NCBI GenBank assembly: GCA_030037355.1
Contig: JASHRL010000301.1
Location: 1-45,776, forward strand
Reading direction: 5' to 3'
DNA length: 45,776 bases
DNA from: Candidatus Acidiferrales bacterium
GTDB lineage: Bacteria; Acidobacteriota; Terriglobia; Acidiferrales; UBA7541
How positions within the stretch are numbered: the stretch's first letter is position 1; every line of letters begins with the position of its first letter. Of this stretch, positions 18,209 through 44,847 are shown in pieces. The notes beneath the pieces are model-generated. The model saw only the letters and a list, made by a program, of their open reading frames with translations. It was not told the DNA's origin and searched no databases. The translations under genes and the position numbers were made by a program.

Positions 18209-18225
18209 TGGTAGCGATACCGGGA
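18209..18225 (+). repeat. att direct repeat, distal copy (displaced tRNA-Glu 3' end)
   Basis: TGGTAGCGATACCGGGA, identical to 44773-44789. Confidence 0.9.
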
Positions 18226-18526: not shown

Positions 18527-20707
18527 CTACGCACCACACGGCTTGAGAAACACTTCAAATGCCTCGCGCAACATTTCACGGTATCGTCGCCGGTCATATC
18601 CATGCCATCCTTCCCACCGCGAGTACGCACGCACACGGTCGTTGGGAATCCGCGCCTCTGAGTCCGTAATGATGTACTCGACCGTCTGTCCGGGGCGGAG
18701 TCGGACGCCGCTGCCGTAAAGCTGCTGCGCGGCAATCGCCGTATGGCAGGCTTTCCGATAATCGCGCACGGGGCGCGTGAGGCGCTTGCTAACAATCAAG
18801 TCCTCGACGGCAATCGCGCCATTTTCAAGGTTCTCTTCGTATTTCCGTTCCACGGCACGGGCCTCTTCAACCTTGCGGCAATAGCTGTCGTAGTCGTGAG
18901 CCTCCGCGAGAATGTCCAAGACCTGCCCCTGCATACGTGCAATCAACGGGGGCGTGTCATGCCTACGCAGTTCGAGGCCACGAACTTTCAAGCTGCCACC
19001 GTTGCTCACAGCAAAGAAGCGATTGGGAACTGGAACATCCTCAAACTGCCGCGAGGGAAGGAAAACGATGTAGCGATAAACGGCTTCGATTGCCAAAGGA
19101 AGCCGCGTCTGCCGCTCAATCTCCCGCGCCAGTTGCTCGTAGTCTTCACGGCTGGCTTGGTCTTTCCAGACATAGAGCGAGTCTACGAGCGCGTGGAGCA
19201 ACTCGAATCCACGGGTTTCGGCGATTTCTTTCGCCACGAGCAGCGTCTCCCGCGCCACGGCATTGATGGCTTCGTGAGCCTCGATTTTGCCGAAGCGGGC
19301 GTTCTTGTAGCCTGTGTACCCAAAGCAGCAAACGAGCAGCCACTTCAAGGCATCGCGCTGCAATTTGTATCGCTGCGCTGTCGATGAAGACACTTCGGGC
19401 TGGCGCTGCTTCAATTCGGTTCTCTTCGAAATGAGCCGCTCCACCACGCGGCTCGTGATGCCGCGCCGTTGCTGGCAAATGCGGTAGCCGAGTTCGGGGA
19501 CGCGGGGCGCGTCCGGGCAGCAGGGGCAATTGACCGTCTCGGGTGAAACATTGAAGCGGGCCATGATGGACGGATACTCGCTGACAAAATCGAGTTCGGC
19601 CACGTTCGTGAAAAAGCCTAGTTTCGGCGTGAATACCAACCCGCCCCTATCGGCGGAGAGAAGCGCGTCGGGCGGCTTTGGGTCTTCCGGTTCCGCCTTT
19701 TGCGATGGAATGAGAACGCCGTCACGGTAAGCGAGTTCCATTTGCATGTACGAGATGCCCGTTCCGGTCGTTGTCCTTGCGCAGTACTGCACCGGCAGCT
19801 TAGTGACGCGTGCCAGTTCCCACAATCCCGCAAGGTCGCACTTGTTGGCGATGAAGGAGTTGCGGGTGTCCACATGCAGGCGGCCAAACAAAGTTGTCGC
19901 ACTATTCTTGAACAAGATGCGGCCATAGCTCATGAAACTTCGTGCTTTGCTCTGCTGCACTTGTGCATCGGGGTCGCGATTGAACTGCAACGCAACGCCA
20001 AGCTGTGCAGCCTGCTGGCGCAAACGCGGCAAGATAGCGGCATCGCCCCAATCCGTCAGGATAAGGTCGGGGTCATGCCATTTGAGGAGGCGCTCAAGAG
20101 CCACGGCAGCAGGCTCACCGGATTCATCCAACTCATATTCCCGTTCGCCCACTTCGACTTCGAGCGCAGTCTGCCGTCCGTGCACCGGGTCTATGCGCGG
20201 CAATCCGCCTAGCCGCACGTGCATGATTTCGAGCGGCGGGAGTTCGTAGTCGAAAGACCATTCACTGTCCCGGCATTCGATGTGTTGCACCTGCCCATCT
20301 TCATCCGCGTCAACTTCGACGAGAGCGAGTGGGAAGACGTTCTTCTGCCAGCAGTAGAGAGAGGCGAGCATGAGGTCGCTGTTATACAGCCGCAGTGCAG
20401 AGTCGAATCTTTGCACCCATCGTGTCCAAGAAGAGTATTGCGTGGGGTGCTGCACGGAAATTTCCAAGACCTCACGCGATTCTCTTTCCCAAATGTCCGT
20501 GCGTTCCGTCATGCGGCACACGAGCGCCGAGTGTTTCGGCTCAAGCGCACCATGAAGCCGCCGCAAACTATCGGGCGAACCGGAAACGTAGAAGGCAGGC
20601 GTGAAGCTGTCAATCAGCCGGTGGCGGTTCTGGTTCACTTCCATCAGCCACAATTTCATCCCCTGTGGAGATGGGTAGAGGTCGAGAATCCATCCCTGTA
20701 GTCGCAT
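18527..20707 (-). CDS. family B DNA polymerase, PolB2-like
   Basis: ELDFVSEYPSIMARFNVSPETV (motif A), LKWLLVCCFGYTGYKNARFGKIEAHEAINAVARETLLVAKE (motif B), HALVDSLYVWK (motif C variant); ORF extends upstream but likely start is ATG at 20707 (MRLQGWILDLYPS). Confidence 0.88.
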   Translation of the reverse strand: MRLQGWILDLYPSPQGMKLWLMEVNQNRHRLIDSFTPAFYVSGSPDSLRRLHGALEPKHSALVCRMTERTDIWERESREVLEISVQHPTQYSSWTRWVQRFDSALRLYNSDLMLASLYCWQKNVFPLALVEVDADEDGQVQHIECRDSEWSFDYELPPLEIMHVRLGGLPRIDPVHGRQTALEVEVGEREYELDESGEPAAVALERLLKWHDPDLILTDWGDAAILPRLRQQAAQLGVALQFNRDPDAQVQQSKARSFMSYGRILFKNSATTLFGRLHVDTRNSFIANKCDLAGLWELARVTKLPVQYCARTTTGTGISYMQMELAYRDGVLIPSQKAEPEDPKPPDALLSADRGGLVFTPKLGFFTNVAELDFVSEYPSIMARFNVSPETVNCPCCPDAPRVPELGYRICQQRRGITSRVVERLISKRTELKQRQPEVSSSTAQRYKLQRDALKWLLVCCFGYTGYKNARFGKIEAHEAINAVARETLLVAKEIAETRGFELLHALVDSLYVWKDQASREDYEQLAREIERQTRLPLAIEAVYRYIVFLPSRQFEDVPVPNRFFAVSNGGSLKVRGLELRRHDTPPLIARMQGQVLDILAEAHDYDSYCRKVEEARAVERKYEENLENGAIAVEDLIVSKRLTRPVRDYRKACHTAIAAQQLYGSGVRLRPGQTVEYIITDSEARIPNDRVRAYSRWEGWHGYDRRRYREMLREAFEVFLKPCGA

Positions 20708-20963
20708 GGCGGTTCTCCGCAATATGCAATGCGCATTCGAGCGCATCGAGGCGCTTTTCTTGGTTAAGGACGATGGACAGCAGAACGGACTCCATCGGGT
20801 TGTCGCTGGCTTGATACGTGGCGGCCTGCGTGTAGCAACGGGCATGACGAAACAAACGGTCGAAGCATTCTTGGTCTTCTCGCCGCAATGCACGGCGGAA
20901 TTTCGACCACCTTGCGGCGGTCTCTTCGAGAAGCTGACGGAATGTGGGAACCGTGCGGCCCAT
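20610..20963 (-). CDS. small conserved-looking protein of the PolB2 cassette
   Basis: MGRTVPTFRQLLEETAARWSKFRRALRREDQECFDRLFRHARCYTQAA...; overlaps the PolB start by about 98 nt. Confidence 0.7.
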   Translation of the reverse strand: MGRTVPTFRQLLEETAARWSKFRRALRREDQECFDRLFRHARCYTQAATYQASDNPMESVLLSIVLNQEKRLDALECALHIAENRHATTGMDSRPLPISTGDEIVADGSEPEPPPAD

Positions 20964-28369: not shown

Positions 28370-31090
28370 ATGGCAGCGAGGGCAAAAGCTCCAAAGACGA
28401 AGTCTGCCAAGAATTACCACCATCCTGAATCCGAAAGCCCGATGCGGCCCGAGGTGGGGACGCAGGCGCAATTCAAGAAGAAGCTACCTCCCAAGACCTA
28501 CCGCTACGATTCGTCGCTCTCGCCTGCGCTTGATTGGGACGGAAAAAACTCGGCGCGAGAACAGGGCGAGGCCCAACTCGCAATCGCCGAAGCCGAACTC
28601 AAAGGACTGCATTCCAAGCTCAGCGTGAAGGCGGAAGTCTGGAAAGAGGTCGCCGGGCAAGTCGGGAAGGCGCAGGAGTCGGTACGGAAGTTGAAAGCGA
28701 TGAGCAAGCCGTTCCTGAATTGGGCTGGCAAAGCGGAGCGGCTTTCTTTTGATGTGCCGTCGCTGCCGCTATTCATTCACGAGCGGCTCTCGACCAAAGC
28801 CATTCTCGAAACGCTCAAGGGGCATCGCTTCAACCGCAATCAGGCGACGATGTTCGACCTTTGGGGCGACCCGCAGCACTCGGTGACCGACCAAGTGCTC
28901 CGCGCCTACGAACACAGGGACAAATGGGTCAATCGGATGATTCTGGGCGATTCGCTCGTCGTCATGAACTCGCTCCTCCACTATGAGGGCCTCGGTGGCC
29001 AAGTCCAGATGATTTACATTGACCCGCCCTACGGAATACAGTTCGGGTCAAATTTCCAACCCTTCATCCGCAAGAGAGATGTTGGCCACAACGATGATGA
29101 GGATATGACCCGTGAGCCGGAGATGGTACAAGCCTACCGCGACACTTGGCAGCTTGGATTGCACTCATACCTGACCTACCTACGTGACCGGCTTCAAATT
29201 GCACGCGACCTACTGACTCCGTCCGGGAGCATCTTCGTGCAAATTGGAGATATGAATCTTCATCATCTTCGAGAGGTCATGGACGAGGTTTTTGGCGCTG
29301 ACAACTTTTGTGCACTCATCGCCTTTAGAACCTCTGTTCCCTTGAAATCCACCGGGTTGGCCAGCATCGCTGACCACATTATGTGGTATTCGAAAGACGT
29401 TGAGCGTGTGAAATACAGGGACATGTTTGTCCCGAGAGAAATCGGCGAGGGAACTGTCTATACATCCGTTGAGTTGTCAGATGGCACGCGGCGGAAGATG
29501 ACCTCAGAGGAGCGTGCGGAGCCATCGTTGCTCCCGAAGGATTCGCGGGTTTTCTGCACAGAAAACTTGGTGTCGAGTGGCTACACGCCGACATGCATCT
29601 TCGAGTTCGAATACGAGGGGGAAAAATACAATCCGACCTCCGGTAAGAGCTGGAAAACAAATTTAGATGGTATGAAAGTATTGGCGACAAAACGACGGCT
29701 CGATGCGTCTGGCGATACTCTCAGATATGTCCTCTACCTCGATGATTATCCAGTCATGAAGCTAACCAACCTTTGGACAGATGTTAAGGGCGAAACGGAC
29801 AAACTCTATGTCGTCCAGACCCCGTCCAAAGTGATACAGCGATGCATCCTTATGACGACGGAACCCGGTGACCTAGTGCTTGACCCGACCTGCGGAAGCG
29901 GAACCACAGCATACTGTGCGGAGCAATGGGGTAGGCGTTGGATAACCATCGACACCAGCCGCGTGCCCCTCGCCCTTGCTCGGCAGCGTATTCTAACTTC
30001 GACATTTCCATGGTACGAACTGCAAGACGAGTCTCGCGGGCCAATCAGTGGTTTTGTCTACGAGCGCCCTCGGAGACGCGAAGAAATCGGCGGCATTGTA
30101 CCTCACGTAACATTGAAGTCCGTCGCGCACAGCGAACCCTCTGAAGAAGTTGTTCTAGTGGACAAACCAAGGGAGAACTCCAACGTTACACGAGTGACCG
30201 GCCCGTTCTGCTTTGAGGCGACGATTCCTACCCCTCTGGATTTCGAGGAGCGGAAGTCGGAGACCGCTGCGACCGAGAAGGAAGCAGAACTCTCTTTTGT
30301 TGACCGAATGCTCGAAGTTCTTCGCAAGTCACCTGTACTGCGCCTCGAAGGCAACAAAACTGTCACACTGAAAAATGTTCGGCCACCGGCAAAAACCCTT
30401 TCACTCTCAGCCGAGGCGATGGTGCCGAACGGAGCGGAGAAGCCGGTGGCTTTTGTATTCGGCCCGGAGAACGGCGCGGTGAGCGAGAAGCTGGTGTATG
30501 AAGCCGCTCGCGAGGCGCACGCCAAGAGCTACTCGCATCTGTACGTCATTGGCTTTGCCGTTCAACCGAACGCACGGATGCTCATCGACAAATCTGCCGA
30601 AGTCGTCGGCATTCCCGCTACCTATGTGCAGGCGACGCCAGACCTGATGATGGGCGACCTGCTGAAGAACATGCGCTCCAGCCAGATTTTCAGCGTGTGC
30701 GGATTGCCGGAAATCGAAGTGCGAAGACTCAAGTCGAAGAACGGCGCAGCGAAACAATATGAAGTGGAATTGCTGGGCCTCGACGTGTTCGACCCCGTCG
30801 AGATGGTGAACCACAAGAGCAAGGGCGATGATGTGCCTGCGTGGTTTCTGGACGTGGATTACAACGACCTGTGCTTCCACGTGAGCCAAGCATTCTTTCC
30901 CCGGACGGGCGCATGGGAAAGCCTAAAAAAGGCGCTGCGCGGGGAATATGAAGAGAACGTATGGGAGCATCTGGCGGGAACGGTCAGCGCACCATTCGAG
31001 GCAGGCGACCAAGGCCAAATCGCCGTCAAGGTGATTGACGACCGGGGGAATGAATTGCTGGTGGTGAAGAACCTGAAAGAGGCGAAGTAA
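28370..31090 (+). CDS. type III-like site-specific DNA methyltransferase (Mod)
   Basis: IDPPYGIQFGSNFQPF (motif IV) then LVLDPTCGSGTTAYCAEQWGRRWITIDTSRVPLALARQRI (motif I): beta-class amino-MTase order. Confidence 0.93.
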   Translation: MAARAKAPKTKSAKNYHHPESESPMRPEVGTQAQFKKKLPPKTYRYDSSLSPALDWDGKNSAREQGEAQLAIAEAELKGLHSKLSVKAEVWKEVAGQVGKAQESVRKLKAMSKPFLNWAGKAERLSFDVPSLPLFIHERLSTKAILETLKGHRFNRNQATMFDLWGDPQHSVTDQVLRAYEHRDKWVNRMILGDSLVVMNSLLHYEGLGGQVQMIYIDPPYGIQFGSNFQPFIRKRDVGHNDDEDMTREPEMVQAYRDTWQLGLHSYLTYLRDRLQIARDLLTPSGSIFVQIGDMNLHHLREVMDEVFGADNFCALIAFRTSVPLKSTGLASIADHIMWYSKDVERVKYRDMFVPREIGEGTVYTSVELSDGTRRKMTSEERAEPSLLPKDSRVFCTENLVSSGYTPTCIFEFEYEGEKYNPTSGKSWKTNLDGMKVLATKRRLDASGDTLRYVLYLDDYPVMKLTNLWTDVKGETDKLYVVQTPSKVIQRCILMTTEPGDLVLDPTCGSGTTAYCAEQWGRRWITIDTSRVPLALARQRILTSTFPWYELQDESRGPISGFVYERPRRREEIGGIVPHVTLKSVAHSEPSEEVVLVDKPRENSNVTRVTGPFCFEATIPTPLDFEERKSETAATEKEAELSFVDRMLEVLRKSPVLRLEGNKTVTLKNVRPPAKTLSLSAEAMVPNGAEKPVAFVFGPENGAVSEKLVYEAAREAHAKSYSHLYVIGFAVQPNARMLIDKSAEVVGIPATYVQATPDLMMGDLLKNMRSSQIFSVCGLPEIEVRRLKSKNGAAKQYEVELLGLDVFDPVEMVNHKSKGDDVPAWFLDVDYNDLCFHVSQAFFPRTGAWESLKKALRGEYEENVWEHLAGTVSAPFEAGDQGQIAVKVIDDRGNELLVVKNLKEAK

Positions 31091-31093
31091 GCG

Positions 31094-32587
31094 ATGGCCG
31101 GTTATCCCGAGGTTGGAGAGCCAATCCAGAACTCGCCGTTCGAGGAGCCGACTCGCTATTGGTACATCCGCGAGGGCGAGCAGCCGCAGCTTGTCGAGGG
31201 GCGGCGGCGACCTGCGATTGTGTTCGCTCCTCGCGAACAGAAAAAGCCGTGGCAAACGGACGAGCGGCTGTTGCGGCCTTCGAAGCAGTACCCAACAGGA
31301 TTCGAACTCGCGTTGGTCAACCTGATTCGAGAGCGCGTAGCCGAATGGCAAAAGCAGGGCTATCCCGGCACGACACGAACAACTCTCGAACTCATGCAAT
31401 GGTGGAGGCGCGAGGGGCGCGAAAAGCGGCTCTTCTTCGCTCAGCTTGAGGCCGCAACCTCCGTAATTTTTCTGAAGGAGGCGCGAGCCGATTTCCTGCA
31501 AGGCGTTTCCATCCCGCGAGACGAGCCAAGCGACGACCGCAAGGAAAAAGACGGATACACGGGATTCGAGCGGTACGCCTGCAAGATGGCGACCGGCTCC
31601 GGCAAAACGACGGTGATGGGGATGCTGGCGGCGTGGAGCATCCTGAACAAGGTGAACAACCGAAGCGATGGACGGTTTTCAGACACAGTGCTGGTTGTCT
31701 GTCCGAACGTGACCATCCGGCAGCGGCTCGCCGAACTCGACCCGTTGCTCGAAGAGGCTAGCATTTACCGGACGCGAGACCTCGTCCCGGCGCACTTGAT
31801 GCCGCTGTTGAGCCAAGGGAAGGTCATCGTTACGAACTGGCACGTGTTCGAGCCGCAGGGAACGCAGACGGACGGCGTTAGCTCGAAGGTGGTGAAGGCA
31901 GGCAAGGAAGTGCGGGTCAAAGAGACCATCAACATCGGCTCGAAGACGACTACCGCCCACGGAAAGCGTTACCTCAGCCTGAAGGATTACGAATTGCAGG
32001 TTGCGAACGGAATGCTGACCGTATTGCCAGACGGAGAAGCACGAGACAAAGATGGCAGCCTGAAACGAGTGAAGGTCGAGTCCACGCGATACGTCGAGAG
32101 CGACACGGCCCTCATCAATCGAGTAATTGGGCGTGAGGTTGGCGGGAAGCAGAATCTTCTTGTGCTGAACGACGAGGCGCACCACGCCTACCGCATCAAG
32201 CGCGAGGAGCCTGACGAGGAAGAAGAAGACGAATTCGGCGAGCAGGAAGAGGCGGACGAATTCTTTCAAGAGGCGACCGTCTGGATTGACGGACTGGATA
32301 AGCTGCATAAGCAGCGAGGCATCAATTTTTGCGTTGACCTGTCGGCGACTCCATATTTCCTCGGTAGAGTCGGGCAAGAGTCGAATAAGCCCTTTCCGTG
32401 GGTCGTGAGCGACTTCGGTCTGATTGATGCCATCGAGTCAGGGCTGGTGAAGATTCCTCAGTTGGCCGTCCGCGACACGACCGGAGAAGAAATTCCCGGC
32501 TACCTGAATATCTGGCAGTGGATTCTGGAAAAGAAGCTCACTCCAGCGGAACGTGGCGGCAAGAAAGGAAGCCCGAAGCCATCTTGA
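31094..32587 (+). CDS. type III-like restriction helicase/nuclease, N-terminal fragment (frameshifted)
   Basis: Walker A MATGSGKTTVMGML; DEAH in VLNDEAHHAYR; VDLSATPYF; frame ends at TGA 32587 but homology-like text continues in another frame. Confidence 0.85.
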   Translation: MAGYPEVGEPIQNSPFEEPTRYWYIREGEQPQLVEGRRRPAIVFAPREQKKPWQTDERLLRPSKQYPTGFELALVNLIRERVAEWQKQGYPGTTRTTLELMQWWRREGREKRLFFAQLEAATSVIFLKEARADFLQGVSIPRDEPSDDRKEKDGYTGFERYACKMATGSGKTTVMGMLAAWSILNKVNNRSDGRFSDTVLVVCPNVTIRQRLAELDPLLEEASIYRTRDLVPAHLMPLLSQGKVIVTNWHVFEPQGTQTDGVSSKVVKAGKEVRVKETINIGSKTTTAHGKRYLSLKDYELQVANGMLTVLPDGEARDKDGSLKRVKVESTRYVESDTALINRVIGREVGGKQNLLVLNDEAHHAYRIKREEPDEEEEDEFGEQEEADEFFQEATVWIDGLDKLHKQRGINFCVDLSATPYFLGRVGQESNKPFPWVVSDFGLIDAIESGLVKIPQLAVRDTTGEEIPGYLNIWQWILEKKLTPAERGGKKGSPKPS

Positions 32588-34236
32588 AGTACGCCCACCA
32601 TCCCATTGCGATGCTAGGCGGACTTTGGGAGAAGGAAACTGTTGATTGGGCAAAAAACGAAGCTGACCCACGACCGCCTGTCTTCATTCTCGTCTGCAAG
32701 AACACGAAGATTGCGAGGGCAATTTACGAATGGCTCGCCGAGGACAAAGCACCGACTGGGATTCCATCTGCGCGTGTCGCGGGCTTCCTCAACCAGAACG
32801 GTCAGGTGAACACGATTCGGGTGGACACGAAGGTGATACACGAGACGGACGTGGAGGGCGCTAAGGGAGACGAGGTTCGGTGGATGCGGTTCACGCTGGA
32901 CACCGTGGGGAAGACTGGTTGGCCCGGCGACCGGCAGGGACGACCGCTCTATCCAGAGGGGTTCGAAGAACTGGCAAAAAAATTGGAGCGGCCACTCCAT
33001 CCTCCGGGACGGGACGTGCGCTGCATCGTGAGCGTCGGGATGCTCACTGAAGGATGGGACTGCAACACGGTCACGCACATCATTGGGCTGCGCCCGTTCA
33101 TGTCACAGCTTCTGTGCGAGCAGGTCGTGGGGCGAGGACTCCGACGAGTGAGCTACGAACTCGGCAAGAACGGGCACTTCACTGAGGAGGTTGCCAAGGT
33201 GTTCGGTGTGCCGTTCGAGGTCATCCCGTTCAAGGCGAATCCGCAGGGCGCTGCGCCGCCGCGAGTGAAGAAATATCACGTCCATGCGATTCCCGAAAAG
33301 GCGGAATACGAAATCCAATTCCCGAGAGTCGAGGGCTACACGCAAGGGATTCGGAACCACGTGACGGTGGATTGGGCGAACGTGCCGCGCATGGTGTTGC
33401 AGCCCGACTTGATTCCTCCCAAGGTGGACATGAAAGGGCTGAGCATCTCGGACACCGGGCGATTGAGCTTGGCGGGGCCGAATCGCTTGGACGAAGTCAC
33501 GCTGAAAGAGTATCGGGCACGGATGAGATTGCAGGAGCTTGTATTCGATTTGGCGAAGGGCCTGACCAAGGAATATGTTTCGCAGCCGCAGTGCCACGTG
33601 CCCGCCCACGTTTTGTTTCCGCAACTGGTCAGAATCATCCAGAAGTACATGGCAGAGAAAGTGGAAGTCCGCCCTCCTGCCGACCTCAAGGATTTGGGTC
33701 TTGCGCCGTATTACCCTTGGCTGGTCGAAATCTTGACCGAAAATATCCGGCCCGACACAGCAGGCGGTGAGGCACCAGAGATTCCCCGTTACGAATCGAG
33801 CCGAGGCCCCGGCTCCACTGCCGAAGTGGATTTCTGGACGAGCCGGGAGCCACGGGAAGTCGTGAAATGCCACCTGAACTATGTCGTTCCTGACACTCAG
33901 AAGTGGGAGCAGGCCGCTGCTTACTACATTGATTCGCACGATGCCGTGGATGCGTTCGTGAAAAACTCGGGACTCGGATTCGCAATCCCGTACCTGCACA
34001 ACGGACAGATGCACGACTACATTCCCGATTTCATAATCCGGCTCAAGAGCGACCCGCAGGTTCACCTGATACTAGAAACCAAAGGTTATGACGAGCGCGA
34101 AGAGGTTAAGGCTGCGGCGGCGAAGCGCTGGGTGGATGCCGTGAACTCGGATGGCTCTTATGGAAAGTGGCGCTACGAACTAGTGAAGAAGACCACGGAT
34201 GTTCCGAAGAAAATCAGTGAGGTTTCTGGGGCGTAG
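32518..34236 (+). CDS. type III-like restriction helicase/nuclease, C-terminal fragment
   Basis: continues as KPEAILKYAHHPIAMLGGLWEKE...; helicase motif VGRGLRR; C-terminal DFIIRLKSDPQVHLILETKGYD PD-ExK core; true junction about 32560-32590. Confidence 0.85.
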   Translation: MDSGKEAHSSGTWRQERKPEAILKYAHHPIAMLGGLWEKETVDWAKNEADPRPPVFILVCKNTKIARAIYEWLAEDKAPTGIPSARVAGFLNQNGQVNTIRVDTKVIHETDVEGAKGDEVRWMRFTLDTVGKTGWPGDRQGRPLYPEGFEELAKKLERPLHPPGRDVRCIVSVGMLTEGWDCNTVTHIIGLRPFMSQLLCEQVVGRGLRRVSYELGKNGHFTEEVAKVFGVPFEVIPFKANPQGAAPPRVKKYHVHAIPEKAEYEIQFPRVEGYTQGIRNHVTVDWANVPRMVLQPDLIPPKVDMKGLSISDTGRLSLAGPNRLDEVTLKEYRARMRLQELVFDLAKGLTKEYVSQPQCHVPAHVLFPQLVRIIQKYMAEKVEVRPPADLKDLGLAPYYPWLVEILTENIRPDTAGGEAPEIPRYESSRGPGSTAEVDFWTSREPREVVKCHLNYVVPDTQKWEQAAAYYIDSHDAVDAFVKNSGLGFAIPYLHNGQMHDYIPDFIIRLKSDPQVHLILETKGYDEREEVKAAAAKRWVDAVNSDGSYGKWRYELVKKTTDVPKKISEVSGA

Positions 34237-40014: not shown

Positions 40015-41304
40015 TCATGCTGCCTCCAGTTGCTTCCGCTTCTTGTCGCGCTTTCGACGCCACATGCGAGCAAATTCAGTCTGACAGCTCTCGCGCTCGC
40101 GACGCCAAATCTCGATGGCGGACATTTCAGCCATTCCATACTCGTCTCTTACCTTGATGAGGCCCGACTCAAAGGGTTTCCGCTGTTCGATGGTCAAGTC
40201 AACCCACCACCACATCGCGTCCTCTCGGTCTTGCTCATCGTCGGCCTGCTGTGGGGTGAGCTTCGACTTTCGAGCGAACTCGGCGCGGCGCTCCTCGACC
40301 TGCCGATGGCTGCGACCCGCGAAGGTTTCAAACTTGCAGCCCGGATTCCAGTAGGCCAAGAACTCGGGGTTGTGGTTGGCGAACGTCATGTACGCCGTCA
40401 GGACGTTGGTGCAGGACTCACCTTTGCCCTCCCCATTCAGAATAGTCGCTATGTGTGTATAGGTCTGCAAGGTCTCGATTAAGTCTCGTGGGCAGCCGTG
40501 GGCGAGAAGGGTCTCCACGACTTCCGACTTGAGCACGACCTTGCCGCCGTGGCGTGGTCGCGGGCACGCGGGAACGGACGGTGCAGGGGTGGCACTCGCC
40601 ATCTGTACCCCGTCCGACAGGACGGGGGCTGTTGCTGTTGCCTTTGGTTTTCCTTCCTTCATTGAGGAAGAAAAGGAAAAAACCGGGTTTTGACTTGAAG
40701 CACTTGTGTTCTCTTCTCCTGTAATGAAGGAAGGTACCCCACTACTGTGTATGGACTTCTTGTCGAGTGGCTTCTCGACTTCTTGTCGAGTGGCCTCTGG
40801 ACTTCTTGTCGATAAGCCTTTGGACTTCTTGTCGAGTGGCTGCTCAGGCGATGTCTTTGCGGCATCCAGATTAACCAGCGACTTCTGGCGTGATTCCTCG
40901 CTCTTGCGGGCACCACGGGACGGCAGCTTGGCGCGGATAAATTCGTCGTCCTCGTCCTTCGCCATCGCTCGGGCCTTGATGGCGGCAAGCTGTTCCTTCG
41001 TGATTGTGTACCAGCACCGCAGGTAGCCACGGTCATCGTGGAATCTCTTCACCTTCAGCCAGCCATCAGCCTCGTACATCTGCGTCAGCTTGCAGACGGT
41101 GTCCACAGAGATGCCGTGCCATGCGGCGAGCGTCTCCTGACGCGAGATACACCACCCGAGAGTGTCCTCCGAGTACTTTTGCGCCTTGACCCATTCAGGG
41201 TCATCCAAAATCAGGGAGGCAATGCGCTCTAACAGGGACTTCGCGACGCCCTTGTATTCGTAGAGATTCGAATTACGGACTGCGGCTGCGTGTTCGCTAC
41301 TCAT
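40015..41304 (-). CDS. winged-helix replication-initiator-like protein (lambda O-like architecture)
   Basis: N-terminal wHTH-like region (CISRQETLAAWHGISVDTVCKLTQMYEADGWLKVKRFHDDRGY), GGGAGGT RBS, internal 23-bp iteron array. Confidence 0.6.
   Translation of the reverse strand: MSSEHAAAVRNSNLYEYKGVAKSLLERIASLILDDPEWVKAQKYSEDTLGWCISRQETLAAWHGISVDTVCKLTQMYEADGWLKVKRFHDDRGYLRCWYTITKEQLAAIKARAMAKDEDDEFIRAKLPSRGARKSEESRQKSLVNLDAAKTSPEQPLDKKSKGLSTRSPEATRQEVEKPLDKKSIHSSGVPSFITGEENTSASSQNPVFSFSSSMKEGKPKATATAPVLSDGVQMASATPAPSVPACPRPRHGGKVVLKSEVVETLLAHGCPRDLIETLQTYTHIATILNGEGKGESCTNVLTAYMTFANHNPEFLAYWNPGCKFETFAGRSHRQVEERRAEFARKSKLTPQQADDEQDREDAMWWWVDLTIEQRKPFESGLIKVRDEYGMAEMSAIEIWRRERESCQTEFARMWRRKRDKKRKQLEAA
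40652..40734. repeat. 12-bp inverted repeat flanking a purine-rich tract
   Basis: CCTTCCTTCATT 40652-40663 and AATGAAGGAAGG 40723-40734; between them GAGGAAGAAAAGGAAAAAACC. Confidence 0.8.
40754..40845. repeat. four 23-bp direct repeats (iteron-like)
   Basis: GACTTCTTGTCGAGTGGCTTCTC / GACTTCTTGTCGAGTGGCCTCTG / GACTTCTTGTCGATAAGCCTTTG / GACTTCTTGTCGAGTGGCTGCTC starting at 40754, 40777, 40800, 40823. Confidence 0.97.
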
Positions 41305-41831: not shown

Positions 41832-42047
41832 GTCCCCTCCTCAATAGCGAGGGTCGTAGACAGTTTCTTTATTTCTTAAAATGTCTATTTGCGGGCGGGA
41901 GATACAGCACGAGTCAAAAGTGCGTATCGGACGAAGTAGGGGAATCGGGCGGGTTTTGCACTTCGGAGCACCTCTGATGCCCCGAAGGAACACCGGCTTG
42001 GTCAGTCCTTCTCCTCAACCTCCCATGTGTCGTAGAGTTCCCACTCG

Positions 42048-42785
42048 TCAGAGTTTACTCTTCCGTCCTTGAGGAAGCAGGGCCCGATAGCCATCATCCG
42101 CAAGAAGTACGGCCCACGCGGCAACGTGCTCGGCGACCGGAACGACGATGCTGTTCCCGAGACAGCGATGTCTGTCCATCCGGTTGGGAACCCCATCATC
42201 CACTCGGAATACTCCGGGCTTAGGCGTCTCTTGGAAATGGCGGTGCCACGACTTGCGCAGGCCTTCCGTTGATTTGACCCACCGCATGTATCTGACGATT
42301 TCGCCGTGGGTGTCGGCCACCAAGAGCACTCTTTTCCGCATGTGTGGAGCGCCAAAGGCGCACGCGGGGAGAACCGACCACCATGCATCATACCCGAGGG
42401 CGGCAAGGCCTTTGAGGACTTCATCCAGTCCTCGACTGAGAAGGTCGGCAGAGATTTCGGCACATACGACACGAGGCCGGATTTCCTTGATGACTCGGAG
42501 CATCTCGAAGAAGAGGCCGGACTCTTTCCCCCGGATGCCCGCTTTCCTTCCTGCCGGGCTGATGTCCGTACAAGGGAATCCGCCGCTGATGACATCAACA
42601 GGCCCGAGATTGTGCAGACCAACTTCCCGGATGTCCCGGAATCTTTTCGCTTTGGGGAACCGTTTTTTGAGGACTTTCGTCGCATAGTCGTCTATCTCCA
42701 CCTGCCATTTGGTCTGGATTCCGACCCTCTCGAACGCGAGGTCAAATGCCCCGATGCCTGAGAACAGGCTTCCGTGGGTGAGCAT
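42048..42785 (-). CDS. DNA cytosine-5 methyltransferase (Dcm-like)
   Basis: HGSLFSGIGAFDLAFERVG (motif I), SGGFPCTDISPAGRKAGI (motif IV), GAPHMRKRVLLVA (motif VIII), LGNSIVVPVAEHV (motif X). Confidence 0.93.
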   Translation of the reverse strand: MLTHGSLFSGIGAFDLAFERVGIQTKWQVEIDDYATKVLKKRFPKAKRFRDIREVGLHNLGPVDVISGGFPCTDISPAGRKAGIRGKESGLFFEMLRVIKEIRPRVVCAEISADLLSRGLDEVLKGLAALGYDAWWSVLPACAFGAPHMRKRVLLVADTHGEIVRYMRWVKSTEGLRKSWHRHFQETPKPGVFRVDDGVPNRMDRHRCLGNSIVVPVAEHVAAWAVLLADDGYRALLPQGRKSKL

Positions 42786-43003: not shown

Positions 43004-43234
43004 TCACGCAGCCCACCGCCAATACTTGTCTTTTGCGACCCGCTCTTCGGTCTCTCTCGTGACCAACAGGTCTGTCTTGGGAATTAGGTTCTCGATGGCC
43101 GATGCGGGTACACGAACGAGGTAGCCGATGCGCACTACCGGCAGCCGACCACGTTTAATCCATCGGTAGATAGTGTTCGGGGTGACCCGCAGGATTGTAG
43201 CGACTTCTTGGACGGTCAAGAGTTTTGGAGCCAT
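43004..43234 (-). CDS. excisionase-type helix-turn-helix protein
   Basis: LLTVQEVATILRVTPNTIYRWIKRGRLPVVRIGYLVRVPASAIENLI. Confidence 0.88.
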   Translation of the reverse strand: MAPKLLTVQEVATILRVTPNTIYRWIKRGRLPVVRIGYLVRVPASAIENLIPKTDLLVTRETEERVAKDKYWRWAA

Positions 43235-43451
43235 GACGTGCCTCTTCGGTTTGAACCTGCCCGAAGCGACACGCACTAAGATTCGACGTGAACTTCTTCT
43301 TGGCTTTTCGAGTGACGTTACACGCGCTAGCTTTCGCCGCCTTCTGTTTCACTCGACAGCGCCGGTGGTCGGCGCTTTTGTCATCAGCGAATTGCTCGCC
43401 TTCGACGATGATTCGATTCTATGCAGGAGGAGGCGGACGCGGCCCACCTCT

Positions 43452-44615
43452 CTACGCTGCCGCGTCGTTCACCTGCTTGCGTAGCGTGGGGTCGGTTCGC
43501 TTGACCGCCCGCAAATAAGACATCGTTGTTTCAATGTCGGCGTGGCCGAGCAGCTTTTGAATCGTGTAGATGTCCACGCCAGCGCGGCAAAGAGTGGTCG
43601 CGTACAGGACTCTGAAACTGTGCATCGGCTTTGTTGGAACATCGACTCCGGCACGCTTCGCCACCCGCTTCACGATGCGGTCAATATGGATGTCCGGCTT
43701 TCCATCACTTCTTGCGAAAAGCAGAGAACCGCTCAGCGTCGCCACGTAAGCTGCTAGGGTCTCAATCAGGCGGTCATTAACCGGGACGGTTCGCTCCTCG
43801 CAATCCTTCGTCTGAAATCCCAATTCGGGCTTTGACCGAGTGCGGATTGTCTTCTCCGCAAAGTTGATGTCGGACTCTTGGGAGTGAACGATTTCGCCTT
43901 TTCGGAAGCCCGACCCTCGGGCGAGCAGGATAAGGACGCGCTCCTTGTCGGCCTTGCAGACCGCCAGCATTTTCCGAATGTCTTCGTCAGTCCAAGGCTC
44001 ATATTCATGATGCTCGGCCTTTGGCCAATCGGTCTGTTTGACGAGTCCGCGTTTCCCATACCGATTCAGGAATGTGACGACGTAGGCGAACAGATTCCGG
44101 GCAGTGTAGCCGCGGCCGTGCTCGGTTTCGCACGTCGCCTTGAAATTCATGACGCAGGGTCGTTCGATTTCGTCTACGTACTCGACCTTGCATCTTCGTT
44201 GAAACAGTTTGATTGCGTGGCTGTACGCATCATAGGTTTTCGGACGCTTGTGCTCTTGAATTTCGACAAGATATTCGTTGGCCGCATCACGAAGGCGGGT
44301 TCGTTGTCCGCCAACTTCTTTCGAGTCCTCGTTGAGAGGGATGCCGAAAGACTTGGCATTCAGGGCGGCTTCCATCCGGCGCATCGCGTTCAGCGCCTTT
44401 GGCGCGTCGCTTCCGGCAGGTTTCAGGATACGCTTGCCCTTGTCGGTGTAGCGGAGGTAATAGCCAAACGTCCGCTCGACCGCGACTTCCTCTCCTCCAA
44501 TGATGGCGACTCCCGATTTGATTTTCCCGTTTTTCGTGAATGCAGGACTCACGAAGCTCGACTTGCGGTCTCCAGCGTTGACCTTTACTCTGACTTGCAG
44601 CTTGACCTTGCTCAT
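43452..44615 (-). CDS. tyrosine integrase
   Basis: RGSGFRKGEIVHSQ (Arg I), MHSFRVLYATTL (HxxR), LLGHADIETTMSYLR (H...Y); adjacent to the tRNA att site. Confidence 0.95.
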   Translation of the reverse strand: MSKVKLQVRVKVNAGDRKSSFVSPAFTKNGKIKSGVAIIGGEEVAVERTFGYYLRYTDKGKRILKPAGSDAPKALNAMRRMEAALNAKSFGIPLNEDSKEVGGQRTRLRDAANEYLVEIQEHKRPKTYDAYSHAIKLFQRRCKVEYVDEIERPCVMNFKATCETEHGRGYTARNLFAYVVTFLNRYGKRGLVKQTDWPKAEHHEYEPWTDEDIRKMLAVCKADKERVLILLARGSGFRKGEIVHSQESDINFAEKTIRTRSKPELGFQTKDCEERTVPVNDRLIETLAAYVATLSGSLLFARSDGKPDIHIDRIVKRVAKRAGVDVPTKPMHSFRVLYATTLCRAGVDIYTIQKLLGHADIETTMSYLRAVKRTDPTLRKQVNDAAA

Positions 44616-44689
44616 GTGCTTTTCCTTTCCCTGAATAGTACTGAGCGAAAGGAAAAAGCTCCGGGCCTACTTTTGAGAATCTAGCAAAG

Positions 44690-44732
44690 TGCTCGAAAAA
44701 AGTGGCAACAGTGCTCTCAAAAGTGGCAACAC
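44690..44732 (+). repeat. AAAAGTGGCAACA(C) x2, putative integrase arm-type sites (right end)
   Basis: AGTGGCAACA at 44701 and 44722 (21-bp spacing), each preceded by GTGCTC; shares TGGCAACA with the left-end repeats. Confidence 0.55.
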
Positions 44733-44772: not shown

Positions 44773-44847
44773 TGGTAGCGATACCGGGAATCGAACCCGG
44801 ATTTGAGCCTTGAGAGGGCTCCGTCCTAACCGTTAGACGATATCGCC
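44773..44847 (-). tRNA. tRNA-Glu(CTC)
   Basis: GGCGATATCGTCTAACGGTTAGGACGGAGCCCTCTCAAGGCTCAAATCCGGGTTCGATTCCCGGTATCGCTACCA; anticodon arm GAGCC-CTCTCAA-GGCTC, T-arm CCGGGTTCGATTCCCGG, encoded CCA. Confidence 0.97.

Follow-up and report, generated by a model that had tools for sequence, protein, structure and literature searches.

A putative replication initiator gene on an integrative island of a Candidatus Acidiferrales bacterium carries four direct repeats with a strict 23-bp period in the middle of its coding sequence, followed in gene sense by a tract of low helix stability. With a probability of roughly 80%, we consider that the repeats and the tract constitute an iteron origin located within the gene of its own initiator, which would work like lambda O and pSK41 Rep. 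Because the anatomy is the same as in these two systems, the same mechanism is likely, and we infer binding and replication by analogy. A sequence-only reading of this DNA had already proposed an iteron-type origin inside the initiator gene, with its parts in the lambda O order; this proposal is supported as the best explanation, at the level of sequence, by a distant homologue (L005), by arrays in 8 of 30 surveyed genes and by the low-stability tract 3' of the repeats.

The repeat array and the gene that contains it

The window analyzed here is the whole stretch of 45,776 nt, and the features discussed are collected in Table 1. Exact copies of the core start at 40754, 40777, 40800 and 40823, with start-to-start spacings of 23, 23 and 23 bp, which bears out the earlier statement that four copies recur every 23 bp inside a minus-strand gene. 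The array has the highest Tandem Repeats Finder score in the window (125, the runner-up scoring 66). A GTGG flank had also been attributed to the repeats; it is found in the other copies but is replaced by TAAG in the third, and is therefore not universal. While the 13-bp core is identical in all four copies, 7 of the 10 spacer columns are variable; the chance that all 7 variable columns would miss the core is 4.9e-4, or approximately 0.01 when corrected for the choice of block. Within the 3.75-Mb assembly the array is present a single time. A pair of cores separated by 10 bp was not found at a second site in this genome or in 88 other genomes of the family, and the exact iteron pair, searched as a DNA pattern, had no match in IMG/VR or GTDB contigs.

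Table 1. Positions of the proposed origin, its gene and the island features in the window
Feature	Position	Strand	Remarks
Putative replication initiator gene	40015..41304	-	429 aa from ATG 41304 (444 aa from GTG 41349)
Four-iteron array, 23-bp unit	40754..40845	-	Core GACTTCTTGTCGA (+ strand); proposed initiator-binding part of origin
Low-stability tract	40640..40750		Proposed unwinding element; directly 3' of iterons in gene sense
12-bp perfect inverted repeat, CCTTCCTTCATT / AATGAAGGAAGG	40652-40663 / 40723-40734 (40652..40734)		Flanks low-stability tract
Small HTH protein	43004..43276	-	Excisionase-like by appearance; sequence reading only
Tyrosine integrase	43452..44615	-	PF00589 E=1.1e-23; phrog_1 E=3.5e-43
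Left attachment repeat	18209..18225	+	Same 17 bp as right repeat; island left end
Right attachment repeat TGGTAGCGATACCGGGA	44773..44789	+	tRNA-Glu 3' end
tRNA-Glu gene	44773-44847	-	

The ORF around the array is regarded as a real gene because it is the sole open frame at 40015-41304, because G+C by codon position is that of coding DNA on either side of the array, at 0.57/0.42/0.74 ahead of it and 0.58/0.43/0.74 for the C-terminal part, and because a GGAGG motif lies ahead of its ATG, with the upstream GTG as a possible alternative start. Third-position G+C drops to 0.58 inside the array. A single-sequence AlphaFold2 model predicted, with moderate confidence, an N-terminal winged-helix DNA-binding domain spanning residues 48-102, where the pLDDT blocks are for the most part 64-82, and a linker of very low confidence at approximately residues 144-255, which holds the array-coded residues; the rest of the model was poor. 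The predicted order of parts is an N-terminal winged helix, a disordered linker encoded by the array and a C-terminal domain. With at least three phased direct repeats inside the gene and 3' of the predicted DNA-binding domain, the array has the layout of intragenic iterons.

Profile searches with the protein gave a weak match to phrog_428, "replication initiation protein" (E=0.0044, residues 20-149 of the 444-aa form), and no model in Pfam (E<=0.1) or NCBIfam matched. Fold searches with the single-sequence model returned nothing at E <= 0.001, several top viral rows of this non-significant search being named replication or lambda GpO N-terminal proteins, and a PDB sequence search with the N-terminal part found no match. 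The gene probably encodes a replication initiator; this label, given with no firm family assignment, was chosen because of the wHTH, the weak profile match, the genomic position and the layout.

Recurrence of the layout in other wHTH genes

No close homologue of the protein was found in GTDB contigs, IMG/VR, collections of phages and plasmids or 399 genomes of the class, and a tblastn search against phages was empty. The only credible distant homologue found with the protein is L005, from another family, which shares 22-23% identity and the same wHTH signature. The equivalent part of this gene contains six copies of AGCCATAGGAAC, with spacings of 18, 39, 23, 23 and 24 bp and reading frames of 0,0,0,2,1,1, so that the position and the period of the array are retained while the DNA motif and the peptide are wholly different. 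A homologue that keeps the 23-bp period while its peptide drifts is what the sequence-only reading had looked to, and L005, with its conserved array position and 23-24-bp spacing, agrees with it. Two of the three matches in the class, L003 and L004, were dropped, as they matched in the linker and C-terminal part, crossed stop codons and had no array. An alignment-based search of the phylum found only L039, which has no array, and L040, which has one.

A survey of 200 genomes of the class was then made for genes encoding a phrog_428 or HTH_36 wHTH domain, with an array defined by a fixed criterion as a 12-mer with at most 2 mismatches, present in at least 3 copies at successive spacings of 20-25 bp. 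The scanner detected lambda O, used as a positive control, with spacings of 20, 24 and 23 bp that match its annotated iterons. Of the 30 wHTH genes with a length of 200 aa or more, 8 carried arrays (L005, L009, L015, L040, L044, L054, L055 and L061; spacing 21-24 bp), whereas none of 239 background ORFs, taken from 400 kb of one class genome (G167), did so (Fisher p = 1e-8); the other 22 wHTH genes did not reach the criterion. Two reservations apply: repeats had already been noticed in L005 and several others when the criterion was set, and all background ORFs are from one genome; the size of the contrast outweighs both. Like the window gene, the array-bearing genes encode a wHTH and contain, after it, at least three repeats within the coding sequence, but each has its own motif and copy number, and at the protein level they share very little or no detectable identity with the window gene; by domain and layout they represent candidate homologues. 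Reading by eye the genes 3' of similar wHTH genes suggested a DnaB-like helicase (L009, L015 and L020), a DnaC-like ATPase (L014) and a primase (L016). In L059 (array at about 2112-2215) and L007 (after the ORF at 1462-1836), iteron-like arrays with a spacing of approximately 23 bp lie just downstream of the wHTH gene, possibly as a variant with the origin next to the gene.

The reading frames bear on whether the repeats were selected as a repeated peptide in the protein. The four copies of the window gene translate in three frames as PLDKKS, LSTRSP, ATRQEV and PLDKKS, exactly as had been read earlier; a repeated peptide would fit the two copies that encode PLDKKS, while the other two translate, in different frames, into peptides that are unrelated. 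In 7 of the 8 array genes of the survey the copies are spread over at least two frames, a layout that a peptide-level repeat could not produce, and most spacings are not multiples of three (14 of 22 in the survey genes; 17 of 25 when the window gene is included). Only the array of L009 (L009:1777-1860) is purely in frame, with a period of exactly 24 bp and all copies read as RKDSSGQE repeats, followed by the DnaB-like helicase gene; it is the sole survey case where selection on peptide and on DNA are inseparable. The reading frames essentially refute the repeated-peptide explanation, to which we give almost no weight. The frames and the recurrence of the layout favor selection on the DNA, and the corresponding claim of the sequence-only reading, that the DNA rather than the peptide is selected, is favored by the mixed frames in those 7 of 8 genes.

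Recent slippage or tandem duplication could also have generated such an array, as a minisatellite in a disordered linker without a binding function. Disordered linkers tolerate repeats, and no close relatives were found that could date the array. Each gain or loss of 23 bp would, however, shift the frame of the C-terminus, which retains its full coding signature, and the divergence among copies is confined to the spacer, leaving the core invariant. Moreover, the 8 of 30 wHTH genes, against 0 of 239 controls, show the same layout with unrelated motifs and often with unequal spacing. Taken with these observations, slippage appears improbable as the origin of the repeats, and an array of binding sites is preferred.

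The low-stability tract and the surrounding island

An easily melted tract lies beside the repeats: positions 40651-40710 are 60% AT in a gene of 58% G+C and reach the 98.8th percentile of instability for the island, even though the instability 3' of the array is not significant by random placement when gene 40015-41304 is considered alone (p=0.17). The peak instability of the gene falls no more than 100 bp 3' of the array. When the window gene and the eight survey genes are combined, instability exceeds that of random positions on the 3' side (p = 0.024) but not on the 5' side (p = 0.63). The inverted repeat that flanks the tract falls within a larger inverted pair, I1.

Iteron-like arrays can serve as copy-control or partition sites, and the repeats might be bound by the encoded wHTH protein or by another regulator, for control of its own transcription, incompatibility or partition rather than for the start of replication. 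Binding alone would account for all of the DNA-level evidence. Against such a regulatory site, the array is located mid-gene, at approximately 460 bp from the start of the gene, in a region where no site resembling a sigma-70 promoter was found (a weak test); it is followed by a low-stability tract, as in lambda O; and several of the similar survey genes adjoin helicase or primase genes. A purely regulatory role is therefore considered unlikely, though less so than slippage, and a replication origin is the preferred reading.

The gene lies on an insertion of approximately 26.5 kb (18209-44789) at the 3' end of a tRNA-Glu gene. The insertion is recognized because, in the empty site of G081, a genome of the same genus, the DNA that lies left of 18209 here is approximately 120 bp from the same tRNA-Glu, with chromosomal synteny continuing beyond it. 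With its integrase, its flanking repeats that match the tRNA 3' end and the empty site in G081, this region has the characters of a tRNA-integrating genomic island. The integrase and the small HTH gene are located left of the tRNA-Glu gene, as are a cytosine methylase region and the initiator gene. Int, small HTH and rep-like genes, considered for a possible phage-inducible chromosomal island, are present. The rest of the island includes a resolvase, a family-B DNA polymerase, a type III methylase, ORFs for restriction subunits and a further adenine methylase. Among the island proteins scanned, none could be recognized as a helicase loader or a replicative primase, and no helicase or primase gene was recognized beside the initiator gene. 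Contigs with related integrases (L096-L098) had no 20-25-bp array within the DNA examined.

Several other features of the island were observed. A 21-bp repeat, GCAACAGTGCTCAAAAAAGTG, occurs in 2.3 copies at 44684-44731, in the gap that separates the start of the integrase from the end of the tRNA-Glu gene; the copies resemble arm-binding sites for the integrase within the attachment region. The type III restriction subunit (window 31094-34236) appears to be divided between the overlapping ORFs 31094-32587 and 32518-34236, adjoining an intact type III methylase at 28370-31090, and this restriction gene is probably broken or mis-assembled. A C5-cytosine methylase seemingly extends over two frames (window 42002-42785), with the N-terminal motifs in 42048-42785 and a match to a different DNA methyltransferase family in 42002-42685, which could represent a frameshift or overlapping remnants. 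The family-B DNA polymerase (18527-20893) lies just within the left end of the island and is patchy in relatives, where it is found at other places (10 of 31 genomes).

Comparison with known origins and proposed mechanism

Origins within an initiator gene are already known from lambda-like phages and RepA_N plasmids. In lambda and Stx phages, iterons and an AT-rich tract are found in the middle of gene O, and lambda O, like the window gene, has four iterons mid-gene, 3' of the DNA-binding domain and 5' of the AT-rich tract (PMC7466680). The spacing of the lambda iterons (20, 24 and 23 bp) differs from the strict 23-bp period of the window gene, which has another iteron sequence, no recognizable sequence homology to lambda O and no recognized P/DnaC-like gene adjoining it. 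Searches of Pfam, phage tblastn and the fold search did not place the protein in the lambda O family, phrog_428 giving the E=0.0044 match described above. Unlike the phage cases, the gene is located on an integrative island with no recognized phage structural genes among the proteins scanned and no recognized helicase or loader gene.

In pSK41, four boxes in the center of rep are bound by the N-terminal winged helix of Rep, the central linker encoded by the origin is dispensable, and the C-terminal domain recruits host factors (PMC5703833). The window gene shares with it the N-terminal winged helix, here predicted, and the four central repeats, but is found on a mobile island, not a plasmid, and in a different host group, and its product matches no Pfam family at E<=0.1, RepA_N included. 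The window gene would add a further example to these origins, with a protein that is otherwise unclassified and an island integrated at a tRNA gene as its carrier. The more interesting part of the result, that this layout recurs among the wHTH genes of the class, was not found described in the open-licence papers searched.

In the proposed mechanism, the island would first be excised by its own integrase. The iterons would be bound by the N-terminal winged helix of the protein whose gene surrounds them, several initiator molecules loading side by side on sites spaced 23 bp, or approximately two helical turns, apart. The adjoining tract would then open, and the C-terminal domain could recruit the host helicase or primase, such recruitment being proposed because neither was recognized beside the initiator gene. 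Together, the iterons and the easily melted 3' tract would make up an origin of theta-type replication within the initiator gene, from which the excised circle may replicate. The protein stretch encoded by the iterons would be a linker tolerant of many sequences, so that the DNA could be constrained while the peptide reads in three frames.

More tentatively, and with odds slightly below even, an origin inside the initiator gene may be common among a large, mostly unnamed set of wHTH initiators on mobile elements of the class, in which iteron and reading domain would change together as one inherited unit of private specificity, with the spacing (21-24 bp) fixed and the sequence and frame free. 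Phased 21-24-bp repeats in mixed frames behind a winged helix represent a signature, recognizable from sequence alone, for initiators and origins, usable for poorly studied mobile elements whose proteins match no family. The many natural pairs of a reading domain and its private iteron would be of use for studying how initiator-origin specificity evolves, and the result points to minimal replicons on which vectors might be built for these bacteria, for which few genetic tools exist.
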